DNA from: Sulfuricurvum sp.
GTDB taxonomy: Bacteria > Campylobacterota > Campylobacteria > Campylobacterales > Sulfurimonadaceae
Direction: 5' to 3'
Assembly: GCA_011391735.1 (NCBI GenBank)
Contig: JAABPY010000187.1
Span: 1-41,351 of the forward strand
DNA: 41,351 bases
In this document: piece after piece, positions 10,887 through 30,844 of the stretch
Numbering within the stretch: the first letter of the stretch is position 1
Layout: each line of letters begins with the position of its first letter
Position numbers and translations under genes: made by a program
Notes under the pieces: generated by a model
Databases searched by the model: none
Told to the model about the DNA's origin: nothing
What the model saw: only the letters and a program-made list of their open reading frames with translations

Positions 10887-12539
10887 TTATTTAGGTAAAC
10901 TGAAATAAAAACAACTCCCCTCTCCCACGACACTCTCAACCCATATTTTTCCACCATGAAGATCAATTATTTTTTTGACAATTGTAAGACCCAGCCCTGT
11001 CCCTTTCATTGCATCACTTTGATGTTCCCGAATTTGGACAAATGGATCAAATAAAGTATCAATTTTATCACTAGCAATACCATACCCATGATCTGCAATA
11101 CCAAAAATGTCACTTTGCTCTTCTCGTCTATGCGTGAGGGTAATGGTCTGCGATTCAGGTGAAAATTTAATCGCATTACTGAGTAAATTTACCACTACTT
11201 GTTTAATCAGTTGACGATCTGCTTGGATCAAAATTCCCTCTTCTATCTCTAACGAAAGGGTTAAATGTTTTTTATCTGCCATAGACTCTACTAAAATTTC
11301 CACTTCATTAATTAAATCTTTCATAAAAAAAGGGGCGATATGCATCTCCATTTTACCCGCTTCAATTTTAGAAAAATCAAGAATAGTATTAACAAGAGAG
11401 AGGAGATTCTTCCCCGAAATATGGATCTTTTCGATAAACATTTTTATGTTACTAGGGGTATCTGCTTTTACCATAAGAATTTGAGAAAAACCAATAATTG
11501 CATTAAGTGGTGTCCGCAGTTCATGACTCATACTCGATAAAAAAGTATCTTTGGCACGGTTGGCTTCTTGCGCTTGATTCATCGCTGTAATTGCTTCATC
11601 ACGTGCCAATTTCAACTCTTCTTGCGCACGAATACGCTCACTTATATTTTTTTTCACCACAACAAGGTGAGTTACTTGACCACGCTCAATCAACGGTGTA
11701 ATGGTTAACTCTTCAAAATAACATTCACCTGACTTGATTTTGCTAACGACCTCCCCCTCCCAAACCTCACCATTGGTCACTTTATCCCAACACTCTTTTA
11801 CTTTTATCGAATCATTACGCTCATCATCAAGAATAAAATGTTTATTTTCCCCAATAATTTCTTCCGTTTTATAGCCACTGTAGCGAAGATACTCTTGATT
11901 GGCATATTGGATATTACCCTCATTATCGGCAATTAACATCATTGTAGCACTTGATTCAAGAGCAAGTTGCTGTAAATCAATCAACTCTTCACGTTTTTGA
12001 TCCATCGAAATATCCGAGATCGAAAATACTATCCCCTTTGGCACGCCATCATGGGTAATCGAATAAGCTGAATAGCGAACAGGAATAGTATGTCCAAAAG
12101 CATCGTTAACGGAAGCTTCCCCCTCTCTTCGCCCAACTCCTACCCCATATTCAATAATATTAGTAATCTCTTCATCACTAATAAATTGATTAATATTATG
12201 ATCAATCATCTCTTTTTCAGTACGACCTAATAAATAACACGCACTCTCATTTGAAAAAGTTATATTTCCCTCTAAATTTACTGCAAAAAGACCGACGCTC
12301 AGTGCATTTAGAATCGAATCGTGCATCTCTTTATGTTGACGTTGAAGTAACTTATTGGCTTGCTCTAGTTCTTTGGAACTGACATCCAGTGTATTTTCCA
12401 AAAGGCGACGCTCTTTTTCTGCTTCATTATAAAAATCACTAACACTGTTTAAAAAAGGGGCTAATTCATCGACCAACTCAGGGCGAACAAATCGACGCAT
12501 CTGACGAATTAACAACCTATGATAAGATGACAGTTCCAT
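10887..12539 (-). CDS. PAS-PAS sensor histidine kinase (FIST-associated)
   Basis: A 550-residue cytosolic kinase without membrane segments. Order: N-terminal helical coiled region (about 1-75), PAS (about 75-180), second PAS/PAC (about 190-305), HisKA with phospho-accepting H339 in SSMSHELRTPLNAIIGF, and HATPase_c with NLLSNAIKFS, the G1 box DHGYGI (usual DTGxGI, slightly altered) and KGTGLGL. Started at the ATG at 12539, five bases after AAGGGG; a GTG at 12545 is too close to it. It is the last gene of the operon, 9 bases after the FIST gene, so the FIST protein is the likely ligand sensor feeding this kinase. Its kinase core closely resembles that of the hybrid kinase upstream. Confidence 0.9.
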   Translation of the reverse strand: MELSSYHRLLIRQMRRFVRPELVDELAPFLNSVSDFYNEAEKERRLLENTLDVSSKELEQANKLLQRQHKEMHDSILNALSVGLFAVNLEGNITFSNESACYLLGRTEKEMIDHNINQFISDEEITNIIEYGVGVGRREGEASVNDAFGHTIPVRYSAYSITHDGVPKGIVFSISDISMDQKREELIDLQQLALESSATMMLIADNEGNIQYANQEYLRYSGYKTEEIIGENKHFILDDERNDSIKVKECWDKVTNGEVWEGEVVSKIKSGECYFEELTITPLIERGQVTHLVVVKKNISERIRAQEELKLARDEAITAMNQAQEANRAKDTFLSSMSHELRTPLNAIIGFSQILMVKADTPSNIKMFIEKIHISGKNLLSLVNTILDFSKIEAGKMEMHIAPFFMKDLINEVEILVESMADKKHLTLSLEIEEGILIQADRQLIKQVVVNLLSNAIKFSPESQTITLTHRREEQSDIFGIADHGYGIASDKIDTLFDPFVQIREHQSDAMKGTGLGLTIVKKIIDLHGGKIWVESVVGEGSCFYFSLPK

Positions 12540-12548
12540 CCACACCCC

Positions 12549-13673
12549 TTATTCGTACAAACTAACAAGCGTCATTGTTTGATTGTGCAACGTACAGCGT
12601 GATTCACCAACCTCCGATAGCTCACCATACGAATAAAACCCTGTCATTATCGCTTTTTCTCCGAGTATTTCACGGATAATTTCAAGCTCTTCCTCACACA
12701 GTTGCCCCAAAACCAATCGTCTTCCCACGCAACTTACGAGTAATACCAAAAATTCCTCATCATAATCGACCTTTGATTCTGTCGCTGCTAGTCCTGCGTG
12801 ATGAATAAGACTGTCCATATTGGTCTTCATCAAACGACATAATCCTCCATCAGGAATATCTCCTGCAAATGTTAAGCTTTGTTGCTCTTCATCAATAGCA
12901 AGAAGGGTTCGAATCAACGGAGTCGAATTCACATCGCTACGAATACTCATGGGGAAACGCAATCCACTCCCTGGCAACGCATTTGCAAATTCCCCCAAAT
13001 AGCTTTTATACAGTTCAAGAGCAGGCTTATTGTCGATAGTATAAAGGGTATTCCCCTCAGAATGGGTAATACGGCGTTCTGCCCCAAACTCCTCCCATCC
13101 AGCAGAGCATCCACTTTGTGCACGAAGTGTCTCACCATATAGTCCAATAGCTGCAACCATTCCCGTCTGTGCCATCTCTTGTGCCATTACGTACGTCATT
13201 TCAAATCGTGTACCATCACCTGCTAGACCACCCGTAATACTGACACCATCAGGTAATACATGGGATAATCCACGTGCGAGTTCGCTTCCATTTACCAATA
13301 ACCCATCGGAGAGGATAAATACATGACGTAATGTATCTGAAATAAGTTTCTCCCCTAATGCGCTTCCGAGTTCTTCCATAGTACCAAAATCAGCTACTTT
13401 TTTAGAAACACAACGTACTTGTGATCGCTCAAAGGTGATAGCTGTTGCTAGCGCGTCATGATCGCTAATTACGGTATCCAAGATACTTCCCGAACTGCTT
13501 GCCCCTGCAATAATGGCATTAGGATAGATAGTAACTAGCTCTTCATACCACGCTTGAGTTAGACAAATAGGATGATCAAAAAACACCAATACTAAATCTC
13601 TTTGCTGCGCCAACGTCGTATCAACTGCACTCCATCCCGATTGCTCACTCCATCGTATTTGTTCACTTTTCAT
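12549..13673 (-). CDS. FIST domain sensor protein (FIST_N and FIST_C)
   Basis: A 374-residue soluble protein with the FIST signatures: AIIAGASSSGSI near 53-64, VSITGGLAGDGTRFE around 144-158, and the C-terminal half with PGSGLRFPMSI and the family's closing segment AIMTGFYSYGELSEVG. FIST proteins are thought to bind small ligands such as amino acids and pass the signal to partner kinases or receptors. It overlaps the HDOD gene by four bases (ATGA) and is followed by the PAS kinase. No metal or catalytic site was recognised. Confidence 0.9.
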   Translation of the reverse strand: MKSEQIRWSEQSGWSAVDTTLAQQRDLVLVFFDHPICLTQAWYEELVTIYPNAIIAGASSSGSILDTVISDHDALATAITFERSQVRCVSKKVADFGTMEELGSALGEKLISDTLRHVFILSDGLLVNGSELARGLSHVLPDGVSITGGLAGDGTRFEMTYVMAQEMAQTGMVAAIGLYGETLRAQSGCSAGWEEFGAERRITHSEGNTLYTIDNKPALELYKSYLGEFANALPGSGLRFPMSIRSDVNSTPLIRTLLAIDEEQQSLTFAGDIPDGGLCRLMKTNMDSLIHHAGLAATESKVDYDEEFLVLLVSCVGRRLVLGQLCEEELEIIREILGEKAIMTGFYSYGELSEVGESRCTLHNQTMTLVSLYE

Positions 13674-20440: not shown

Positions 20441-20611
20441 ATGGAACTTAAACGATATCTGTTTGATTCACCATCCCCCAGTCAAGTTCAGGTTGGTAAA
20501 TTAGACACAAGCGCAAAAAAAGAAGAATCTGTTCAAAAAGAGAACACCGCACCGATAGAAAATATTAGTAATGGACTAAAAAGGATCATTATTCACACGC
20601 ATACCTCATGA
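20441..20611 (+). CDS. 56-aa small protein downstream of the flagellin (possible truncated FlaG-like)
   Basis: Translation from the ATG at 20441, which follows a perfect AAGGAG at six bases, gives 56 residues: a short hydrophilic protein with a polar, Lys/Glu-rich centre (TSAKKEESVQKENTAP) and an IENISNGLKR segment that could begin a helix. FlaG genes commonly follow flagellin genes and start similarly with a disordered head, so a C-terminally truncated FlaG is possible but unproven. The last 19 bases overlap the convergent helicase gene, so the final residues IIHTHTS may be read-through into foreign sequence. Confidence 0.55.
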   Translation: MELKRYLFDSPSPSQVQVGKLDTSAKKEESVQKENTAPIENISNGLKRIIIHTHTS

Positions 20612-21861
20612 ATCTTTACGTCATTCTTTACTCTCACAAACCCCTTCGCCTTCGGATGAACAAAACACAACTTTTCCCATGATCGGTTTGGTTTTGTCAA
20701 TGTAACTCGATGCGCCGAAACCGAACGAGACAATGCGACATAAAACTGTGATGGAGCAAAAATCTCGTTTGTTTCGATAACATAATCGGCTAAAGACATC
20801 CCTTGCGATTTATGAATCGTAATCGCAAATGCCAAGGTAAGGGGAAACTGACTGAGAGTAATAAGTTTCTCTTCCGTTGTTATTTTACCTTTTTCAACCC
20901 ACTTCGTTTTCGTCGTCTCTACCCGCTCCACTTTTACACTTTTTCCATCCGCTTTTTTGACCCAAATAACATCCTCTTCGATAGAGAGTATACGACCCCT
21001 TTCCCCATTATAATAATTCCACGCATTACGGGTAAAGAGGATAGGAGCCCCTATTTTAAATGCCATCACCCGCTCCAAACGGCTCTCACTCAAAAACCGC
21101 TCTACATCACGCTCTTGCATCTTCTTATCGTGAAGGGTAACGTGGGTAGAGAGGTCAATGATCTCTCCGTTGAGATGTTCCAACTGTGAGCGGTTATGAT
21201 TTTGGGCACTGATATTTTTACCATACAACACCGTAATTTCGGACTTATCTTCAGGTAAAGTACGAATAAGGGCATCCAATGCCACCATCGCATTCTCATC
21301 AAGCGAGGCGTGACGGACACTTTCCAATAGACTCAAAAATTCCGTTTCTTCTGTACGGTATGACCCTTCCAAATGAAGCGTTTCAAATGCAAACCGCTCC
21401 CAACTAGGTGACTCAAAAGCAAAATACAGTGGCTCACCACCTCGTACGACAGGAGGAAGCTGCAAAAAATCTCCTACGACAATCAGCCGTCCGTTAAACT
21501 CCGCTTGCAACAATCGTAGCCGTATCATATCCAGCAACGGTGCACTCACCATCGAAATCTCATCAATGATAATCATTGCCATACTTTTGATGAGCTTGGC
21601 AACTTTCTTAGAAACCTCCAGCTTCCCCCCCATCTCTAGCTCTTCTTGAGAGTTACAAATGCCCAAATCCAAAAAACTGTGAAGTGTTTGACCACCGATC
21701 AGGGTTGCTGCCATCCCCGTAGAGGCAAGACGGGCGACGGATTTGCCTTGTTGAACGGCATCCTCAATAATGGTACGTGTCAGCGTTGTTTTTCCTGAAC
21801 CTGCCCCCCCTGTAATGAAGAGGTTCGCTGTTTCTAAAATTTTTAGTGCATTTTTAATCAT
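20593..21861 (-). CDS. Pif1/RecD-type superfamily 1B DNA helicase
   Basis: A 422-residue SF1B helicase. Motif I is GGAGSGKTTLTR, motif Ia ARLASTGMAATLIGG with TLHSF, motif II IIIDEISMV, motif III VVGDFLQLPP, and the C-terminal motifs V/VI are AITIHKSQGMSL and FYVALSRSVS. These make it a Pif1/RecD2-like 5'-3' DNA helicase of the AAA_30 kind, shorter than eukaryotic Pif1. I start at the ATG at 21861 with AAGGA upstream; an ATG at 21867 is six bases before it. It overlaps the stop of the vWA gene by eight to fourteen bases, so it belongs to the MoxR-vWA cluster. Confidence 0.88.
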   Translation of the reverse strand: MIKNALKILETANLFITGGAGSGKTTLTRTIIEDAVQQGKSVARLASTGMAATLIGGQTLHSFLDLGICNSQEELEMGGKLEVSKKVAKLIKSMAMIIIDEISMVSAPLLDMIRLRLLQAEFNGRLIVVGDFLQLPPVVRGGEPLYFAFESPSWERFAFETLHLEGSYRTEETEFLSLLESVRHASLDENAMVALDALIRTLPEDKSEITVLYGKNISAQNHNRSQLEHLNGEIIDLSTHVTLHDKKMQERDVERFLSESRLERVMAFKIGAPILFTRNAWNYYNGERGRILSIEEDVIWVKKADGKSVKVERVETTKTKWVEKGKITTEEKLITLSQFPLTLAFAITIHKSQGMSLADYVIETNEIFAPSQFYVALSRSVSAHRVTLTKPNRSWEKLCFVHPKAKGFVRVKNDVKIHEVCV

Positions 21862-22933
21862 TCTCATCCTTCATAACGACCACCCTCCCAAACGGAACGT
21901 CTCCCTCATACGGAGTAATCCAAAGCGTCTCATAATACGGCTCATTCATCGGAAACGTCCCCTCCAAATCGGTAAAATAAAGCAATATCTGTGGCGGGGT
22001 CATTTGAGTATCGATAAACTCAAAGACAGGGGTAAAATCAGTACCCCCTCCCCCCTCAATCGTATACTCGATACTCTCCCCATTACTAAAACACTGATAG
22101 CTTCGTACACGATCATCACACACAATCAAATCAATCGTATACGAACCAAAAAGCTCTACAATGGATTCAATTTCAGCGATAAACTGTGATAGCAAAACCT
22201 CATCCACCGATCCTGAGCTGTCAATCGCAATGGCAAGTTCCAAATGGCGAGAGGTGGCACTGGGGAGATAAATCCCTGCATAGAGAAGTTTCTTAGAGGG
22301 CGGCATCATCGCATAATCGCTGACATAATATCCGCCGATACGATCACGCAACTCACTACGCCAATCAACCACCCCTTTAAGGGCTATGGGGATCAATCGC
22401 TCCAATCCTTCGGGTACATCTCCCATCTCTTGCGCTTTTTGAAGTGCGTTTTGAGCACGTATCTCGGTTTGTGCCGTTTCAAGGTTATCACGCTCATCAT
22501 TTCGTCGTAAATCATTATCTTTATCGTTAAGATCTTCACGGGTGATGGTGTCCAGAAGGGCTTCATAAATCTCTTCAGCGTATTGTCCCGCAAAACGGGG
22601 GTCATACGTAATCTTGCTAGGGGGGGTGAAATCATTGTCGATGAGGATATTATTGATAGCGTGTTCACACGCCGTATACCACAACCATGGAGAGCGATTA
22701 CCGATGCGTGAGGGGTGAGAGAGGACGGTGTGAAGTGCGGCATTGGAGAGCGAAAATGCGACTTGTTCATCGTCTAGGGTGTTGAAAAAATCCTCTCGGT
22801 ACTCGAAACGGTTACCATGCAGAGTGAAGCTCTCGATATTATCATTCACCACGATTTCCAAACCACTGGATAAGGTTCCAAAATAGGGGTGCTCTACGAG
22901 GAGCTTGGATTTGACGCGGCTAAAGTCTAACAT
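21854..22933 (-). CDS. vWA-like protein with DUF2201-type putative metallopeptidase N-terminus
   Basis: A 359-residue protein. The N-terminal part (about 1-120) resembles the DUF2201 metallopeptidase-like domain, but where an HExxH would be expected I read HTVLSH (68-73), followed by the conserved WLWYTACEHAINN; the catalytic glutamate is missing. A charged linker (about 130-165) leads to the vWA-like half with the MIDAS start AIDSSGSVD (D238, S240) and GGGGTDFTP supplying the later Thr/Asp. In many genomes this protein is encoded directly beside a MoxR ATPase that acts on it; here the MoxR gene is 5.7 kb upstream, beyond the restriction operon. Its ATG is five bases after the res stop and has no convincing ribosome site. 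Confidence 0.85.
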   Translation of the reverse strand: MLDFSRVKSKLLVEHPYFGTLSSGLEIVVNDNIESFTLHGNRFEYREDFFNTLDDEQVAFSLSNAALHTVLSHPSRIGNRSPWLWYTACEHAINNILIDNDFTPPSKITYDPRFAGQYAEEIYEALLDTITREDLNDKDNDLRRNDERDNLETAQTEIRAQNALQKAQEMGDVPEGLERLIPIALKGVVDWRSELRDRIGGYYVSDYAMMPPSKKLLYAGIYLPSATSRHLELAIAIDSSGSVDEVLLSQFIAEIESIVELFGSYTIDLIVCDDRVRSYQCFSNGESIEYTIEGGGGTDFTPVFEFIDTQMTPPQILLYFTDLEGTFPMNEPYYETLWITPYEGDVPFGRVVVMKDEND

Positions 22934-22938
22934 TGATT

Positions 22939-25503
22939 TTACACATCTTTACAATTTGTTACTCTATCTTTATATTTCAAGCCAATTAGGTCAAAATGTT
23001 TTTTTGCATACTCCATTTGCCAATCTTCTCGCGCCCTACTATCTCTTTTTTTATCACTTCCTTTGGTTTCTATGATAAAGCTTCCTTCACTTTCATCATG
23101 TTTTATAATCGCAAAATCGGGAGAATACGAACCTAGCGGCGTTTTTATTTTAAATCGTTTTGGCAGTTTTGCAAAAAATTTGAAGTGAATATCGGCGCAT
23201 TTGATGAAATCTTGCTCTACTGTGCTGTCAAATTGCTCCGATACATACAGCCCTTTTGTACACTCTTCCAAATCATACCCATTGATTTCATCCAAAAATA
23301 TATTCGTAAACTCATAATAATCATCTATTTTTTTATAGGTCAGCCCATCTTCACTGAGCATTTGAAGCATAGTGTCTTCAAAAATTTCAATTGCTTTTTT
23401 CAGATACTCATCACTATTTTTTATAAATTCTTTGGTAAATTTCTCTAGTCCAACCATTTCAAAAATATCGATAATCGTTGATTTTGTTAACCCTAACTGT
23501 TTTTCAATAATTGCTACAATATTGGGCAACTCCTCTTCAAAATCAAGCTTACTGCTTTTTACATCACTCACATATCCATCAAAATTACTCTCAATATTTC
23601 CGAACTGTTTTAGAATCTTTTTCTCTCTCACTTCTATGTTTTGAAGCTCTTTAGCTACCAACTCTTTGTATTGTGAACTGTTAAGCGATATTTCATATAC
23701 GGTTTTTTGTTTGAGTTTTTCCCAAAGTTCCCTAAACTCTTTTAGCTCTTGACTCTCTAAATCATATTTTCTTTTTGATGTTTTCTTTTTAGCCAAATTA
23801 TTGGGTTGTTGGTAACTTTTTTCATTACCGTTTATTTCATATTCAAGCTGTAGACTTTTTGCAAACTCATCAAAACTCTCATTGGCTATAACCGTCAATC
23901 TATTTATCTCTTTATCTTCGATTCTTTGTCCGCTTGAATTTACACTTAGTCTCACTCCACGACCAATAATCTGCCTTTTCTTCATTTGGGACTTTGTGTC
24001 GTTGAGCGTTGTGATAAAAAATACATTGGGATTGTCCCAACCCTCTTTTAACGCACTATGGGAAAAGATAAAACTTCTATTTTCGTCAAAACTAAGAAGT
24101 TTTTCTTTATCTTTCATAATCAAATCATACGTCTCTTTTTGGAGTTTTCGATCACTATCGTTGTTTTTAAGCTCATCAATAAATTCGGCTTTTCTTTTTG
24201 CGAAATAGTAGGCATACACCTCTTTTGCCTCAATATCTTTGAAACTTTCAAAATCAACTTTTAATCTATCGAATTCGCTTATAAAATGATCTTCCATCCA
24301 TCCATTTTCAGCACTCAAAAAATTTGCTACTTTATCCACAAAAAAGAGACTTAACACTTTTATCTCTTTTTGTTTTAGTTCCTCAAATTTCATCATATGC
24401 AGTTTGATAGCTTCACTTATTTGCTCTTTTTGAATCTCTTTTTTGACTTGCCCATTAACATCATTAAGCCTAAGTTTCACACCATTTTCAAACTTTATAA
24501 ACATCTCTTTAAACGATATTTCATCGACGATAAATCCACTATAGATAGGATTTTTAGTTTTCTCCTTGAGGCTGTCATCCCCTTTTATTTTGACTAGTTT
24601 TGTTGTAAATTCATCTTTGTTTTTTACAATAAGTTCCAAAGATGCAACTGGTCTTTTAGACGATTTATCAATCTCAAGTTTCACAACACGAATATAAATA
24701 TCATTAATAGTTTGATTTTCACTCAGTGCTAACACATCAATTTGTTTCACAAGTCCACAATCCAGTGCCTCTTTTGCCCCTAAACTGTACGTCAGATTGT
24801 AATAATTTTTATGCGTTGCCGAATATCTAAGGGTAAAAAGAGGATTGAGTTCATTGAGGGCTGATTTGCTTAAATCACTCTCCATGTTTTGTGGCTCATC
24901 GAGAATTAAAATTGGATTTGTTTTTTGCAAACTCATCTTGGGACTCCCCACAAATCCCTCTCGTGGCATATTTAACACCGTATCGACTCGCTTAAAACTG
25001 TCTATCGTCATAATCATAATTTGAAGCGTATCATCTCGGATAAAATGTTTGAGCATTCCCAAGCGTGAGGAGTCGTATTCAAAATAATCATACGCAAATT
25101 TATACTCATCCCTAAAGTGTTTACCCATACTCTCAAGGGCATTTAAAACACCCTCTTTAATAGCGATAGAGGGGACGATGATGATAAATTTGCTCCAAGC
25201 GTATCGTGAAAAAAGCTCTAAAATGGTTTTGATATAAACAAATGTTTTCCCCGTCCCCGTCTCCATCTCCACCGAAAAATCAAGAGTTTGAAGCATCAAA
25301 GACTCTTCTATCGTGTTGAGCTTTTGTATTGCATGAAGGTTACTTAAAATCTCTTCGTGCGATAAGTGAAGTTCATTAGCACACACCGCCTCACCATCAA
25401 AGATATCAAAACGATTATCTTGTTTCGGTTGCCCTGTAAACAGTTCTACAATCGAGCCTATCGCTTTTTCTTGATGGGGTTGTTTGAGGTATTTTATTTG
25501 CAT
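22939..25503 (-). CDS. res: Type III restriction enzyme, Res subunit
   Basis: An 854-residue SF2 helicase-nuclease. Motif I is METGTGKT (80-87), motif II LDEPQNM (DEPQ 202-205, in place of DEAD), motif III region LRYSATH, and the C-terminal helicase motifs are HSALKEGWDNPNVF and IGRGVRLS. The endonuclease is a PD-(D/E)xK domain with SPDFAI (D796) and IIETKG (E812, K814). With Mod it forms the type III complex that uses ATP to communicate between inversely oriented sites. All signature motifs are intact, so it should be active. Its start overlaps the fic stop by one base (TAATG). Codon usage is visibly more A/T-rich than that of the vWA gene that follows. Confidence 0.93.
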   Translation of the reverse strand: MQIKYLKQPHQEKAIGSIVELFTGQPKQDNRFDIFDGEAVCANELHLSHEEILSNLHAIQKLNTIEESLMLQTLDFSVEMETGTGKTFVYIKTILELFSRYAWSKFIIIVPSIAIKEGVLNALESMGKHFRDEYKFAYDYFEYDSSRLGMLKHFIRDDTLQIMIMTIDSFKRVDTVLNMPREGFVGSPKMSLQKTNPILILDEPQNMESDLSKSALNELNPLFTLRYSATHKNYYNLTYSLGAKEALDCGLVKQIDVLALSENQTINDIYIRVVKLEIDKSSKRPVASLELIVKNKDEFTTKLVKIKGDDSLKEKTKNPIYSGFIVDEISFKEMFIKFENGVKLRLNDVNGQVKKEIQKEQISEAIKLHMMKFEELKQKEIKVLSLFFVDKVANFLSAENGWMEDHFISEFDRLKVDFESFKDIEAKEVYAYYFAKRKAEFIDELKNNDSDRKLQKETYDLIMKDKEKLLSFDENRSFIFSHSALKEGWDNPNVFFITTLNDTKSQMKKRQIIGRGVRLSVNSSGQRIEDKEINRLTVIANESFDEFAKSLQLEYEINGNEKSYQQPNNLAKKKTSKRKYDLESQELKEFRELWEKLKQKTVYEISLNSSQYKELVAKELQNIEVREKKILKQFGNIESNFDGYVSDVKSSKLDFEEELPNIVAIIEKQLGLTKSTIIDIFEMVGLEKFTKEFIKNSDEYLKKAIEIFEDTMLQMLSEDGLTYKKIDDYYEFTNIFLDEINGYDLEECTKGLYVSEQFDSTVEQDFIKCADIHFKFFAKLPKRFKIKTPLGSYSPDFAIIKHDESEGSFIIETKGSDKKRDSRAREDWQMEYAKKHFDLIGLKYKDRVTNCKDV

Positions 25504-26771
25504 TACACACCCACTTTCAAGCGATAATAATATTTATTCCCCTTGGGAGCTTTTAGTTTATCAATCAAATCAAAGTCACCCATTAATGTCAAATCTTTTT
25601 GAATTGTTTGTTGAGAAACACCACATTTTTTTGCCAAATCTGCTTTTGTGAGCATAAACGATTTATTTTTATCGGACAAAATTTCGATGATTTGACTTTG
25701 TCTTGGAGTAAGATCCAAACTTTGATTGTCCGCACGTTGCTTGATAATATCTTCACGCAAATAGGTATTGATGCGGTGTTTAAGGACATCTAAACCCTGT
25801 AACATCACATCGCTCATATAATAGAAAAAGTAAGTCATATCAAAAATTTTGTCCTGACCTACATCACTGCGCTCTACGTCAATAAACGCCTTGTAATAGT
25901 CCTTTCCTTTTTTCTTATAAATGATCTCCGACAAAGAGATATAATAAAACATATCGTAGCCATAAATCTTTAAAAGATATGAAAACAGTATCCTAACCGT
26001 TCGCCCGTTTCCATCATCAAATGGATGGATATAGGCAAAGAGAAAATGAAACGCAATTGCTTTATAAATATTCTCAATCGGTTTAGCAAATTCATCATCG
26101 TGTAAAAAATGGATGAGTTCATCCAGCATTTGATTCATTGCATCGATATTGGCAATAGGGCTAAAAATAACTTTTCCATTGGCGTTGATGATTTCATTGG
26201 GTTCGGTGCGATAACTCCCAACGGCATATCCCTCATCAAGCGAATCTTCTACGGTAGCTTTATGAGTTTGCCAAATCAGGTTATGGGTTAAAAGCTCTGT
26301 TTTATCTTTGAGTGCCAACAACGCTCTAAAATTGTTCAACACCATAAATTCGCTTTTATTTTGCGGCTCTGATTTTCCATAAGCCAATGTTCTTGCCCGT
26401 TTTACAGTAGTGTTTGCACCCTCCATCGTTGAAGAATAATACCCCTCTTCAATGAGCGTTTCACGCAGAAGCTTAAAGCTAAAATCATCTTGAAAGTTAT
26501 ACTCGAAACTTTTCCAAAACTCTTTGATCTTGTCCATACTCTCTTTGAGTCTGAACGTTTCGACAAAATAAAAATGTTTTTCGCCGAAACCAAAAAGATT
26601 ATTTCGATTTTTTAGGCGGTATTGTTTTATTTTTGCCGTTACCTCTATATAGTCGCAACCACTCTCTTCAATCAGTTTTTTACGGTTTTCAATCTCAAAA
26701 AAGGTATAGTAACGGTTGATAGTGAGATATTTAATCCACTCTTTGGTCGTTGTCGGGTATTGAGTAGCCAT
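25503..26771 (-). CDS. Fic-family protein (AMPylase-type) embedded in the type III operon
   Basis: A 422-residue Fic protein. The catalytic loop HPFDDGNGRTVR (249-260) is a full match to HPFx(D/E)GNGRxxR. An inhibitory-helix motif (S/T)xxxE(G/N) is present on the N-terminal side as SSTMEG (113-118), so it is a self-inhibited class II Fic protein. The C-terminus (about 345-422) is a winged-helix domain (LTPRQSQIIEIL, LTKADLAKKCGVSQQTIQKDL). Such proteins transfer AMP or related groups to Ser/Thr/Tyr of targets. It shares one-base overlaps with mod before it and res after it, so all three are translated as one unit; a regulatory role on the restriction complex is a plausible inference. Confidence 0.92.
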   Translation of the reverse strand: MATQYPTTTKEWIKYLTINRYYTFFEIENRKKLIEESGCDYIEVTAKIKQYRLKNRNNLFGFGEKHFYFVETFRLKESMDKIKEFWKSFEYNFQDDFSFKLLRETLIEEGYYSSTMEGANTTVKRARTLAYGKSEPQNKSEFMVLNNFRALLALKDKTELLTHNLIWQTHKATVEDSLDEGYAVGSYRTEPNEIINANGKVIFSPIANIDAMNQMLDELIHFLHDDEFAKPIENIYKAIAFHFLFAYIHPFDDGNGRTVRILFSYLLKIYGYDMFYYISLSEIIYKKKGKDYYKAFIDVERSDVGQDKIFDMTYFFYYMSDVMLQGLDVLKHRINTYLREDIIKQRADNQSLDLTPRQSQIIEILSDKNKSFMLTKADLAKKCGVSQQTIQKDLTLMGDFDLIDKLKAPKGNKYYYRLKVGV

Positions 26772-28561
26772 TACAATGTCTCTAAATCGAGTTTTTCTCT
26801 CAGATTTTGCTTCGTACTATCATCCAGTGCTTTATCAAAACAGATGAGTTTTGCACCCATTGGAACAAACGCCCCAATATCGGTGTGAACTTTATCAGCA
26901 AAACAAAAATAAAATGCTCTATTCTCTTCATGAAGTTTTATAAAGCTGTATTTGTCACCCTTTATCATTTCATTCTTAGCACTCAAACTAAAGCCGTTTT
27001 TTAGCCCCACTTCATAGACAATATCGATCTCTTTGGCACTTTGCGTGAAAATATTTTTAGTAAAGATAGACATTTTGAGCATTTTCACAATATCGTCAAA
27101 ACTATCATTGGGACGTTTTTTCAGTTCTTTAAATACTTGAAAATTGGAAGCATCCAACACATAGGATTTAAAACCGTCTTTATAATCTAGTTTTTTAATA
27201 ACCCGCTTGATTCGCTCTTTGGTAATATCGCTGATTTTTTTATAGCCTGCTTTGTACGCTTCGCTGTTCTCGTCGGTCGCTTCGGGGAGTTGAACTAAAA
27301 TATATTTCCGATTTCCGCTATCTTCTTGATTCAATTCCATCACGGCATGAGCGGTGGTTCCACTTCCTGCAAAGAAGTCTAGGATAATATCTTCTTCTTC
27401 AGCATTTGTTCCGATTTCTAACATTTTACGAATTAACTGTGTGGGCTTTGGTGTATCAAATGGAGGGTTTTCAAATAATTCTTTTAATTCATTATTTGCT
27501 TGTCGTGTCGTTCCTGCAAACTCTGCTAACCAAAGATTTTCTGGCGTTCTACCTTGCTGATCACAAAGATATATTTTTCGAATTATTCGAGTCTCATCGG
27601 ATGAAAAAACTATTTCTCCTGAAGTAATTTTAGCTCTAACTGTATCTTCACTCCAACGCCATCCATTATCAGGCGGATCAATTACTTTTCCTGAAGGCGT
27701 TGCTATAGTATATTTAAGGGTTGCTCGAAAACTTGGACTTCGTACATCACCTGAACGCCATTTTCCTTTAGGGTCATTATCTAAATTAGTATAATTAATA
27801 TTATTTTCTTCAGTACGATCAAATTTTAATGATTCTAAAGCATCTCCTCGACAATAAACTAAAATTTGATTATGGTGTCTTGAAAAGTATTTTTCATCAT
27901 TTTTACTTTGTTTTGTATGATTCCAAATAACATTAGCCACAAAATTTTCTTCCCCATAAATCTCATCCATCACTTTACGGAGATTATGCACCTCGTCATC
28001 GTCAATAGAGACAAAAATAACGCCATCATCACGGAGGAGACTTCGACTCAGCCACAGACGTGGATAAATCATATTAAGCCAGTTGGTGTGTCGTCGTCCC
28101 GTGCTGGAGGTTTTGGTACTCGTGTATCCCTCATCTCGAAGTTGGTCTGTTTGGATGAGATAGTTGGTGATCGTGTCGCCCCATGTGTCTTTGTAGACAA
28201 AATCTTTGTCTTTGTTATACGGTGGATCGATATAGATCATCTTGATTTTTTTATGATACGAGGTTTGGAGGAGTTTGAGAACTTCGAGATTATCTCCCTC
28301 GATAAAGACATTATCCCCATCAGGGATAGTGCTGTCAGGATCGAGTTTTAGAGTAGCATTGGATTTTTGACGGATGGTTTGGTAACACTCTTTTTTACCA
28401 TTCCACGTAAAACTGTAGTGTTCGCTTTTTTCATCGGATTGTGGAGCGACAATGCTTTTAAATTTGTTGATATTAATCACACCATCCTCAAAAATTTCGG
28501 GAAGAATATTTTTGAGTTCTTCCAATTTTTGCGCTAACACATCTCTACTTTCCAACTCCAT
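26771..28561 (-). CDS. mod: Type III DNA adenine methyltransferase, Mod subunit
   Basis: A 596-residue beta-class methyltransferase. The catalytic motif IV is DPPYN (112-116), the SAM motif I is DFFAGSGTT (about 395-403) after the FDTPKPTQLIRKML stretch, and the region between about 210 and 350 is the target-recognition domain that sets sequence specificity. Type III Mod methylates N6 of adenine on one strand and is needed for both modification and restriction. No simple-sequence repeat tract suggestive of phase variation was seen in the gene. A GAGG site precedes the ATG. It is the first gene of mod-fic-res and starts 40 bases after the MoxR stop. Confidence 0.94.
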   Translation of the reverse strand: MELESRDVLAQKLEELKNILPEIFEDGVININKFKSIVAPQSDEKSEHYSFTWNGKKECYQTIRQKSNATLKLDPDSTIPDGDNVFIEGDNLEVLKLLQTSYHKKIKMIYIDPPYNKDKDFVYKDTWGDTITNYLIQTDQLRDEGYTSTKTSSTGRRHTNWLNMIYPRLWLSRSLLRDDGVIFVSIDDDEVHNLRKVMDEIYGEENFVANVIWNHTKQSKNDEKYFSRHHNQILVYCRGDALESLKFDRTEENNINYTNLDNDPKGKWRSGDVRSPSFRATLKYTIATPSGKVIDPPDNGWRWSEDTVRAKITSGEIVFSSDETRIIRKIYLCDQQGRTPENLWLAEFAGTTRQANNELKELFENPPFDTPKPTQLIRKMLEIGTNAEEEDIILDFFAGSGTTAHAVMELNQEDSGNRKYILVQLPEATDENSEAYKAGYKKISDITKERIKRVIKKLDYKDGFKSYVLDASNFQVFKELKKRPNDSFDDIVKMLKMSIFTKNIFTQSAKEIDIVYEVGLKNGFSLSAKNEMIKGDKYSFIKLHEENRAFYFCFADKVHTDIGAFVPMGAKLICFDKALDDSTKQNLREKLDLETL

Positions 28562-28601
28562 CCAAACACCTCACACTAAATTAACCGTTATTGTAACCAA
28601 T

Positions 28602-29597
28602 CTAACATAACAGATACGCGTACGCATTGACCCAATCCCCATACGCGTCTAAATGATCCATCCTAACCCCTTGGCGCTGTAAATCTTGGACGATCATCAC
28701 CGCAAACTCGCTTTGCAATTTCAGAGTATATCCAAGGAGATGATTTATTTTTCCCTCATCAGGATCACTCAAAATCCGTCCGACGAGCGCACTGGAGAGA
28801 GCATATAAGGCTGAAATATCATTGGGATACGCTGACTCTTCCCCCCGTAAAATCGCCTCTATATCAGGGAGTAAAAGCATTACTTTACAAAATCCGAGAA
28901 AATCGACTCCATTTTCTTTTCCGACAGCACCCGCAATGGCTTCCAAAAGGAGCGCATTGGGTAGCGTGCTTTGCAACACATTATGAACCGCTTCCCAGCT
29001 TCGCGGTGTTGCGAAACTTCGTTCATTACGAGTCGGATCAAACGTAAAGAGGGCATCATTTTTGAATCCGATATACGCCACGATTCGTGAATCCACCCCC
29101 CGTTTTATCGCCCACTCTCTCCAATCCTCCACACTTACCTCCATCTCGATATGGACGAACCGATTCGCCAACGGTGAGGGCAAACGATAGACGACTCCTC
29201 TATCTCCCTCACGGTTTCCCGCCGCCACAATCGCCCATCCATCAGGGAGGGTATATTCCCCCACTTTTCGATCCAAGATCAATTGATATGCCGAGGCTTG
29301 AACGGCAGGGGCGGCGGAGTTGAGCTCATCGAGGAAGAGTATCCCCCTGCCTGTACGAGGTAAAAACGACGGCGGAGCCCATAACGCCGTGTGAGACTCT
29401 TTCTCATAAAAAGGTATCCCCTTTAAGTCCGTCGGATCCATGAGAGAAAGGCGCAAGTCGATGCACTCAATCTCCATATCATGAGCAATTTGTTTGATAA
29501 TCGACGATTTCCCAATACCAGGAGCACCCCATAAAAAGGTCGGAATTTTCGACTCAATCAGTGAGCGCATTGTCGTAATTGTCTCTGAACTTCTCAT
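28602..29597 (-). CDS. MoxR-family AAA+ ATPase
   Basis: A 331-residue AAA+ ATPase of the MoxR type. Walker A is WGAPGIGKSS, Walker B ILFLDELN, sensor 1 lies in AIVAAGNREGDRG, and the arginine-finger region is LPSPLANRF, with the typical ATPRSWE of this subfamily near residue 210. MoxR ATPases act as chaperones on vWA proteins. Start chosen is the ATG at 29597, which overlaps the LRV-protein stop (ATGA) and has AGGA eight bases upstream; an ATG at 29606 has no room for a ribosome site. Its usual partner, the vWA gene, is separated from it by the mod-fic-res block. Confidence 0.9.
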   Translation of the reverse strand: MRSSETITTMRSLIESKIPTFLWGAPGIGKSSIIKQIAHDMEIECIDLRLSLMDPTDLKGIPFYEKESHTALWAPPSFLPRTGRGILFLDELNSAAPAVQASAYQLILDRKVGEYTLPDGWAIVAAGNREGDRGVVYRLPSPLANRFVHIEMEVSVEDWREWAIKRGVDSRIVAYIGFKNDALFTFDPTRNERSFATPRSWEAVHNVLQSTLPNALLLEAIAGAVGKENGVDFLGFCKVMLLLPDIEAILRGEESAYPNDISALYALSSALVGRILSDPDEGKINHLLGYTLKLQSEFAVMIVQDLQRQGVRMDHLDAYGDWVNAYAYLLC

Positions 29598-30844
29598 ACA
29601 TTCCATCCTATATTGGCGGTTTGGATATGTTTCCCAAATGCCGCATTGGTTTTAACATACCGCTCATATTTTTGATCCAAAGAGAGCTGATATAACAGTT
29701 CCACAGGGGTGGAAACATTAGCACTGAGTGCTTTGAGCGTTTTCTCCTCCCCCTTCTCATACAATTTTTTCAAATACTCCCGTGGAAGAGAAGTGTTAGA
29801 AGCAAGCTCTTCATCCAATTTTTCCAACGTAAAAAGCTGCTCTAAATGTTCCAAAATAAGCGCCGAATTTTGAGCCAGTGCCGAAAAAATAGCCCCATTG
29901 TCCATTGCCATAAGCTGCTGTTGCATTGCTGCATTTAAACTCATATTGGAAGATAAAGAGACTCCATGTTCAGATAATAATCGTTCAAACAAAATTTCAT
30001 CTAAAGGGATAAAACGGGCAATAAGCTCGGGATATATTTTCTCTAAACTATCGATTCCATCAAATGATAAGCTCCTATTTTGCGCCAAAATTCTATGAAT
30101 AGTTTCATCCTTCAACGCAAGAAGCTCTTTTTCCAATGCCAATGGCTCTCGATGGGCAATAAGTTTCGCACGCTCCTTGAGTAGTTGTCGTAAAAGAGGT
30201 TCAGGCGTATGGCTATGTAACGCCATCGCATCCAATACTCCGTTGAGTGTCGGATCATTAGGATTTTTTAACTCTTTGGCGATAGGAGCAAGCTGTGAAA
30301 TAGCGGTTATGAGTTCTGTATTGCCATATTTTTCTACCAAATGCGCCAACCCACTCATTGCATATTGAACATTATGATTACGTTCAATATCCACATAAAA
30401 CCGCCCAATAATCGCTGCCGTTACATCACGATTACGGTCATTATCAAACAACCCTTCCCCACTCCAATCGTACAATTTCAATAACTTAAAAAAAAGTTCA
30501 TCGGTAATATGAGGATTTTTAATAAAATCAACAAGACGCGCGGCATCACGAGAGAGCTTGAGACTCATTAAGAGGCGATTGGGTTCGATAGAGGTACAAA
30601 GCCATTTTTCGATTTCCGTAATATCCACGATAGGAGCAGCACGGCATTCATACAATCGCTCAGACTCGTTTTGCTCAAGTGGATTCATCATCCGCCCCTC
30701 AACGATCAGCGACACACCCTCCACAAAAGTTTTTTCAACCGTTATCGAATGAAGTTTCAACAACGTTTCAAACTCCATCCCATTCAAAGAGCGTGTTTTA
30801 CCTAGTAGCAATATCGATTTTCCAAAAAGTTCATTATAATTCAT
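29594..30844 (-). CDS. BRCT-like plus leucine-rich-variant repeat protein of the MoxR cluster
   Basis: A 416-residue protein. Residues about 5-85 look like a BRCT fold: GKSILLLGKTRSLNGMEFETLL, then an alternating segment GVSLIVEGRMMNPLEQ and VDITEIEKWL, in the order strand-helix-strand-strand-helix. The rest is helical repeats; the C-terminal 130 residues show LRV-type units (NTSLPREYLKKLYEKG, NVSTPVELLYQLSLD, and N-A-x-L motifs). It is the first gene of the leftward cluster, overlapping MoxR by four bases. A scaffold binding ATPase or client is likely; no catalytic motif is seen. The mRNA looks leaderless, with a TATAAT ending six bases before the ATG. Confidence 0.7.
   Translation of the reverse strand: MNYNELFGKSILLLGKTRSLNGMEFETLLKLHSITVEKTFVEGVSLIVEGRMMNPLEQNESERLYECRAAPIVDITEIEKWLCTSIEPNRLLMSLKLSRDAARLVDFIKNPHITDELFFKLLKLYDWSGEGLFDNDRNRDVTAAIIGRFYVDIERNHNVQYAMSGLAHLVEKYGNTELITAISQLAPIAKELKNPNDPTLNGVLDAMALHSHTPEPLLRQLLKERAKLIAHREPLALEKELLALKDETIHRILAQNRSLSFDGIDSLEKIYPELIARFIPLDEILFERLLSEHGVSLSSNMSLNAAMQQQLMAMDNGAIFSALAQNSALILEHLEQLFTLEKLDEELASNTSLPREYLKKLYEKGEEKTLKALSANVSTPVELLYQLSLDQKYERYVKTNAAFGKHIQTANIGWNV

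Follow-up and report, generated by a model that had tools for sequence, protein, structure and literature searches.

Type III restriction-modification systems are marked by methylation of one strand and by cleavage that needs two inverted sites. Restriction systems that insert with a short or long duplication of the target are known from earlier work (Furuta 2010 and Nobusato 2000, through citations in PMC3874152 and PMC3031569), and the two citing papers describe type I and type III systems as less mobile. Defence genes embedded within other defence systems have likewise been described (Payne 2024, a preprint cited in PMC12988326); DarTG2 lies within a type I locus (PMC12255303), and PrrC within ecoprrI, likewise a type I locus (PMC12707154). 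Here we describe a type III cassette, in which a Fic gene separates mod from res, in a 41,351-nt stretch of Sulfuricurvum sp. DNA (GCA_011391735.1, contig JAABPY010000187.1, positions 1-41,351), referred to below as the window. The block examined, 22,934-28,601, is very probably a mod-cargo-res cassette inserted into a pre-existing moxR-vwa-helicase operon at the overlap of stop and start codons, with the target duplicated.

An initial annotation of the window had placed mod-fic-res between moxR and vwa, all on one strand. The coordinates of the open reading frames (ORFs) agree with this arrangement and put it on the minus strand, and the families were confirmed by Pfam and PADLOC, together with sequence matches in the PDB for Mod, Res and Fic. 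The annotation had also proposed that the block was inserted into an existing MoxR-vWA operon, and that relatives with moxR followed directly by vwa would bear on this. Such a join, with zero restriction genes in between, was found in 26 other Sulfuricurvum genomes, most of the compared genomes being metagenome assemblies. Because moxR directly precedes vwa in these relatives, the block is an addition to an older operon. The join usually consists of overlapping stop and start codons (ATGTTAG or ATGA): in the nearer group it reads TTATGTTAGATTT, with the TAG stop of moxR inside the first vwa codons and an overlap of 7 bases, and in the farther group ATGA. In two more distant loci (L048 and L049), moxR and vwa are adjacent with a short gap.

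In the window, the insert is bounded by an 8-bp direct repeat of the target, ATGTTAGA, with one copy at the end of moxR and the other at the start of vwa, and the two bases next to the copies differ (TT vs CT). The overlap is thus present twice, so that both genes stay whole. Together with the empty sites, this repeat supports the proposed insertion. The vWA ATG does come five bases past the res stop, as had been stated. Its weak ribosome site, which the annotation had counted in favour of the insertion, is not a scar, since in relatives the vWA start lies within the moxR stop region anyway.

Family-wide, copies of the cassette, defined as those with Res of at least 67% identity, occupy many loci. 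In G031, which is a third species, the same cassette is located between valS and fliW with the 12-bp ATTATACCAAAA at each end, the copies being 6288 bases apart. ATTATACCAAAA is present as a single copy at the empty site in G015 and G017, and as a near copy in G036. Target duplications were thus measured in two cases, 8 bp in the window and 12 bp in G031, each with a direct repeat and a single-copy empty site. The stretch common to both inserts runs from TTGGTTACAATAA through the res stop, and the G031 insert is longer at both ends. Elsewhere, the cassette lies between dnaN and gyrB, normally neighbours, in G142 (L145 3363-10632), and in G112 its flanking genes are adjacent in 12 of the 14 relatives' loci that lack it; the ends of the G112 insert could not be read, as the neighbouring genes of the relatives are only about 70% identical. 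For G114, zero relatives were found with both neighbour genes. The search for a carrier yielded none, with relatives in the plasmid collection all below 60% and those on viral contigs at 26-41%.

Several observations weigh against the insertion. Seven of the eight repeat bases are needed twice if moxR and vwa are both to be intact, and ATGTTAGA alone could therefore reflect selection and is no proof of a transposition-like event. The G031 insertion site is intergenic, and only G031 escapes this objection. Neither the dnaN-gyrB site of G142 nor the uvrA sites of G203 and others yielded a clear duplication, as the flanks had diverged too far or showed no repeat. Terminal inverted repeats were not noticed when the ends were compared by eye only, and the block's ORF lists, from which alone this was judged, contain no transposase.

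The gene between mod and res is not constant. Ten copies of the cassette have a visible mod start. The window carries Fic, matched as SoFic by PADLOC, at this position, while G019, G031, G114 and G142 carry an AAA_21 ATPase with a DUF4276 protein, resembling HEC-01. The same place is taken by AAA_21 and a 184-aa protein in G112, by PD-T4-4 in G168, by AbiD in G203, by DUF3800 and a second gene (PDC-M04) in G077, and by BrnT with a CopG-like antitoxin in G212, where mod and res are broken. Other copies, in which mod is incomplete (G145, G124, G152, G167 and G194), fit this picture. From these assignments, the mod-res gap holds differing known or candidate defence modules. Other Res subfamilies served as a control: in one, at about 40% identity, mod and res are likewise separated by other genes, and 7 of its 10 scanned proteins gave strong PADLOC defence matches, including PDC-S02, PifA, PDC-S06, PtuA, NsnB, SIR2 and PDC-M04. 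In five loci of other subfamilies (G133, G226, G211, G115:C2 and G149), res comes immediately after mod. The slot therefore occurs beyond this cassette, but not in every type III system.

The filled site is shared with one sister species, represented by G019, and so the insertion is not private to the genome of the window. The left junction of G019 is identical to that of the window, for which one insertion before the two lineages split would be the simplest reading. The fic gene of the window is replaced in G019 by the AAA_21 and DUF4276 pair, and one region of mod has only 51-73% identity between the two as opposed to 78-95% on either side, which suggests that the probable target-recognition domain was replaced relative to G019. 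Between the window and G019, identity at fourfold sites is 80% for res, 71% for vwa and 57-61% for moxR, helicase, lrv and pnp; as res exceeds the flanking genes, this points to sequence exchange across res. Between species, Res of the window is 94% identical in amino acids to that of G031 and Fic 94% to that of G012, as against 84-85% for Pnp to both, which points to transfer of the cassette genes.

This exchange across res lends weight to another history, in which homologous recombination in the flanking genes, and not a separate insertion per lineage, carried the filled site from genome to genome. We regard such spread as possible, though somewhat improbable; it would account for the distribution of the filled site, but neither for the first insertion nor for the G031 copy located elsewhere. 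The block might instead be ancestral at the moxR-vwa site and have been lost many times. G012, which stands outside the closest group, offers some support, having genes for the ATPase, DUF4276 and Fic directly ahead of vwa; there, the contig breaks off on the left, moxR is carried by a different contig and res was not found. However, the 26 precise joins would require losses that restored the codon overlap again and again, the short-gap adjacency extends to L048 and L049, and in G012 the contrast between fic (94% identical to the window) and vwa (73%) suggests transfer. We therefore consider ancestry with repeated loss very unlikely.

The initial annotation had also offered a stable island in which the MoxR-vWA pair and the restriction genes cooperate as one defence system. 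Their common strand, their tight spacing and their retention in two species would fit, but most of the genus has the pair without the block, and in G031, as in other genera, the cassette is not accompanied by the pair. Cooperation thus found no support and seems to us scarcely credible. Insertion into the older operon remains our preferred reading, and in G012 the separation of moxR from vwa could possibly be a rearrangement linked to the cassette. The moxR gene of G012 terminates in TTAGGTTAG, an lgt-like gene comes next (L047 10950-11110), and the vwa of G012 stands behind the cassette genes on the other contig.

Base composition and codon usage were tried as proof of foreign origin and rejected. 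The block is indeed AT-rich relative to its immediate flanks, as had been claimed (GC 0.34-0.37, whereas vwa and moxR have 0.46-0.48). This is weak evidence of insertion, since GC values of 0.34-0.37 also occur in other genes of the window and the block does not stand out in its synonymous codon usage.

Table 1. Features of the cassette and of the host operon in the window.
Feature	Positions	Strand	Assignment and remarks
lrv	29594-30844	minus	416 aa; heads the host operon; no Pfam match at E<=0.1; precedes moxR in relatives
moxR, AAA ATPase	28602-29606	minus	AAA_3/AAA_5 matches; genus orthologues 73-93% identical
Target duplication, left copy ATGTTAGA	28601-28608	minus	Includes moxR stop
Left end of cassette, leader	28562-28600	minus	TTGGTTACAATAA and ribosome-site-like GTGAGGTG ahead of mod; both in G019 and G031; candidate promoter at most
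mod, type III methyltransferase	26771-28561	minus	PADLOC MTase_III, 547 bits; resembles EcoP15I Mod and 6k0w
Divergent region within mod	27401-28000	minus	Probable target-recognition domain, from identity comparison with G019
fic, cargo gene	25503-26771	minus	Pfam Fic and HTH; PADLOC SoFic, 128 bits; SoFic and Fido structure matches
res, type III restriction subunit	22939-25503	minus	Pfam ResIII and RE_endonuc; PADLOC REase_III, 615 bits; EcoP15I Res match
Target duplication, right copy ATGTTAGA	22926-22933	minus	Includes vWA start
vwa, DUF2201 vWA-like protein	21854-22933	minus	Pfam; adjoins moxR in relatives
PIF1-like helicase	20593-21867	minus	Pfam; last gene of the host operon, also seen in relatives

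Mod is a beta-type adenine methyltransferase in which the motif DPPY precedes FAGSGTT, as read from the sequence. Res carries superfamily 2 (SF2) helicase and PD-(D/E)XK endonuclease domains. The Fic protein has the motif HPFDDGNGR in its Fic domain, a C-terminal helix-turn-helix (HTH) and SSTMEG, which reads as an inhibitory-type motif. Consensus promoter and terminator scans scored near, or only modestly above, shuffled sequences and were not used. The genome of the window encodes a second, distant Res relative of 32% identity (G000:C148:1052-2728).

In the host operon, the described overlaps of lrv with moxR and of vwa with the helicase are real, although the spans had been given slightly too short; they cover 29594-29606 and 21854-21867. 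The label LRV/BRCT-like for the first gene could not be confirmed. Despite zero Pfam matches, this gene is conserved beside moxR across the genus. The vwa-helicase junction also holds insertions in the relatives L032-L035 (about 12070-13510), namely a gene for a DUF347 membrane protein (L032-L034), in L032 also genes for DUF4160 and DUF2442, and in L035 a toxin-antitoxin-like pair of UPF0175 and DUF3368. In G012, nucleotidyltransferase-like and HepT-like genes occupy this junction (L077 8121-8444 and 7733-8128).

In our reading, this type III cassette is mobile and has a defence slot whose content can be exchanged. It would have entered exactly at the overlap of the moxR stop and the vwa start; by duplicating about 8 bp of target sequence, it would have damaged neither flanking gene and left vwa five bases behind the res stop, and it may move between genomes as a unit. 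Judging from the family, Mod and Res would act as they do in EcoP15I, Mod protecting by methylation and Res cutting phage or foreign DNA that is unmethylated. Fic proteins transfer AMP, and the cargo, here a predicted AMP-transferring protein, may form a second defence layer, as family membership and the precedents of PrrC and DarTG2 suggest. By analogy with PrrC in its type I locus, the cargo might be released when restriction is blocked. The locus offers a view before and after, in empty and filled sites, of a type III system entering a working operon without breaking it. It also links movement of the cassette with the exchange of defence genes in one slot. As a defined case, it makes the movement of restriction systems without a transposase testable, and the mod-res slot is a place in which new defence genes can be sought.

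That mod-cargo-res is a mobile element of a kind undescribed for type III, inserting at short sites with duplication, leaving its neighbours intact and trading its central defence gene, is a claim we put forward tentatively and hold to be rather doubtful. Within open-licence full texts, the type III combination of target-duplicating insertion and embedded defence, with empty sites, appears new, and an earlier report may exist. Mod and Res match EcoP15I-type systems over most of their length, whereas the window's cassette has a cargo gene between mod and res. The cargo shares with the SoFic adenylyltransferase a Fic domain, a C-terminal HTH and the PADLOC match, but it aligns with the solved SoFic only in the Fic core, over about 107 residues. 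Like the inserting restriction systems (Furuta 2010; Nobusato 2000), as far as the citing papers portray them, the cassette has left its neighbours intact and its target duplicated, and no mobility gene was seen linked to it; unlike them, it is of type III, and imperfect terminal inverted repeats were not noticed. As in the embedded-defence systems, a second defence gene lies between the genes of restriction subunits. In contrast to those precedents, the host system is of type III, and near-identical cassettes differ in their cargo.
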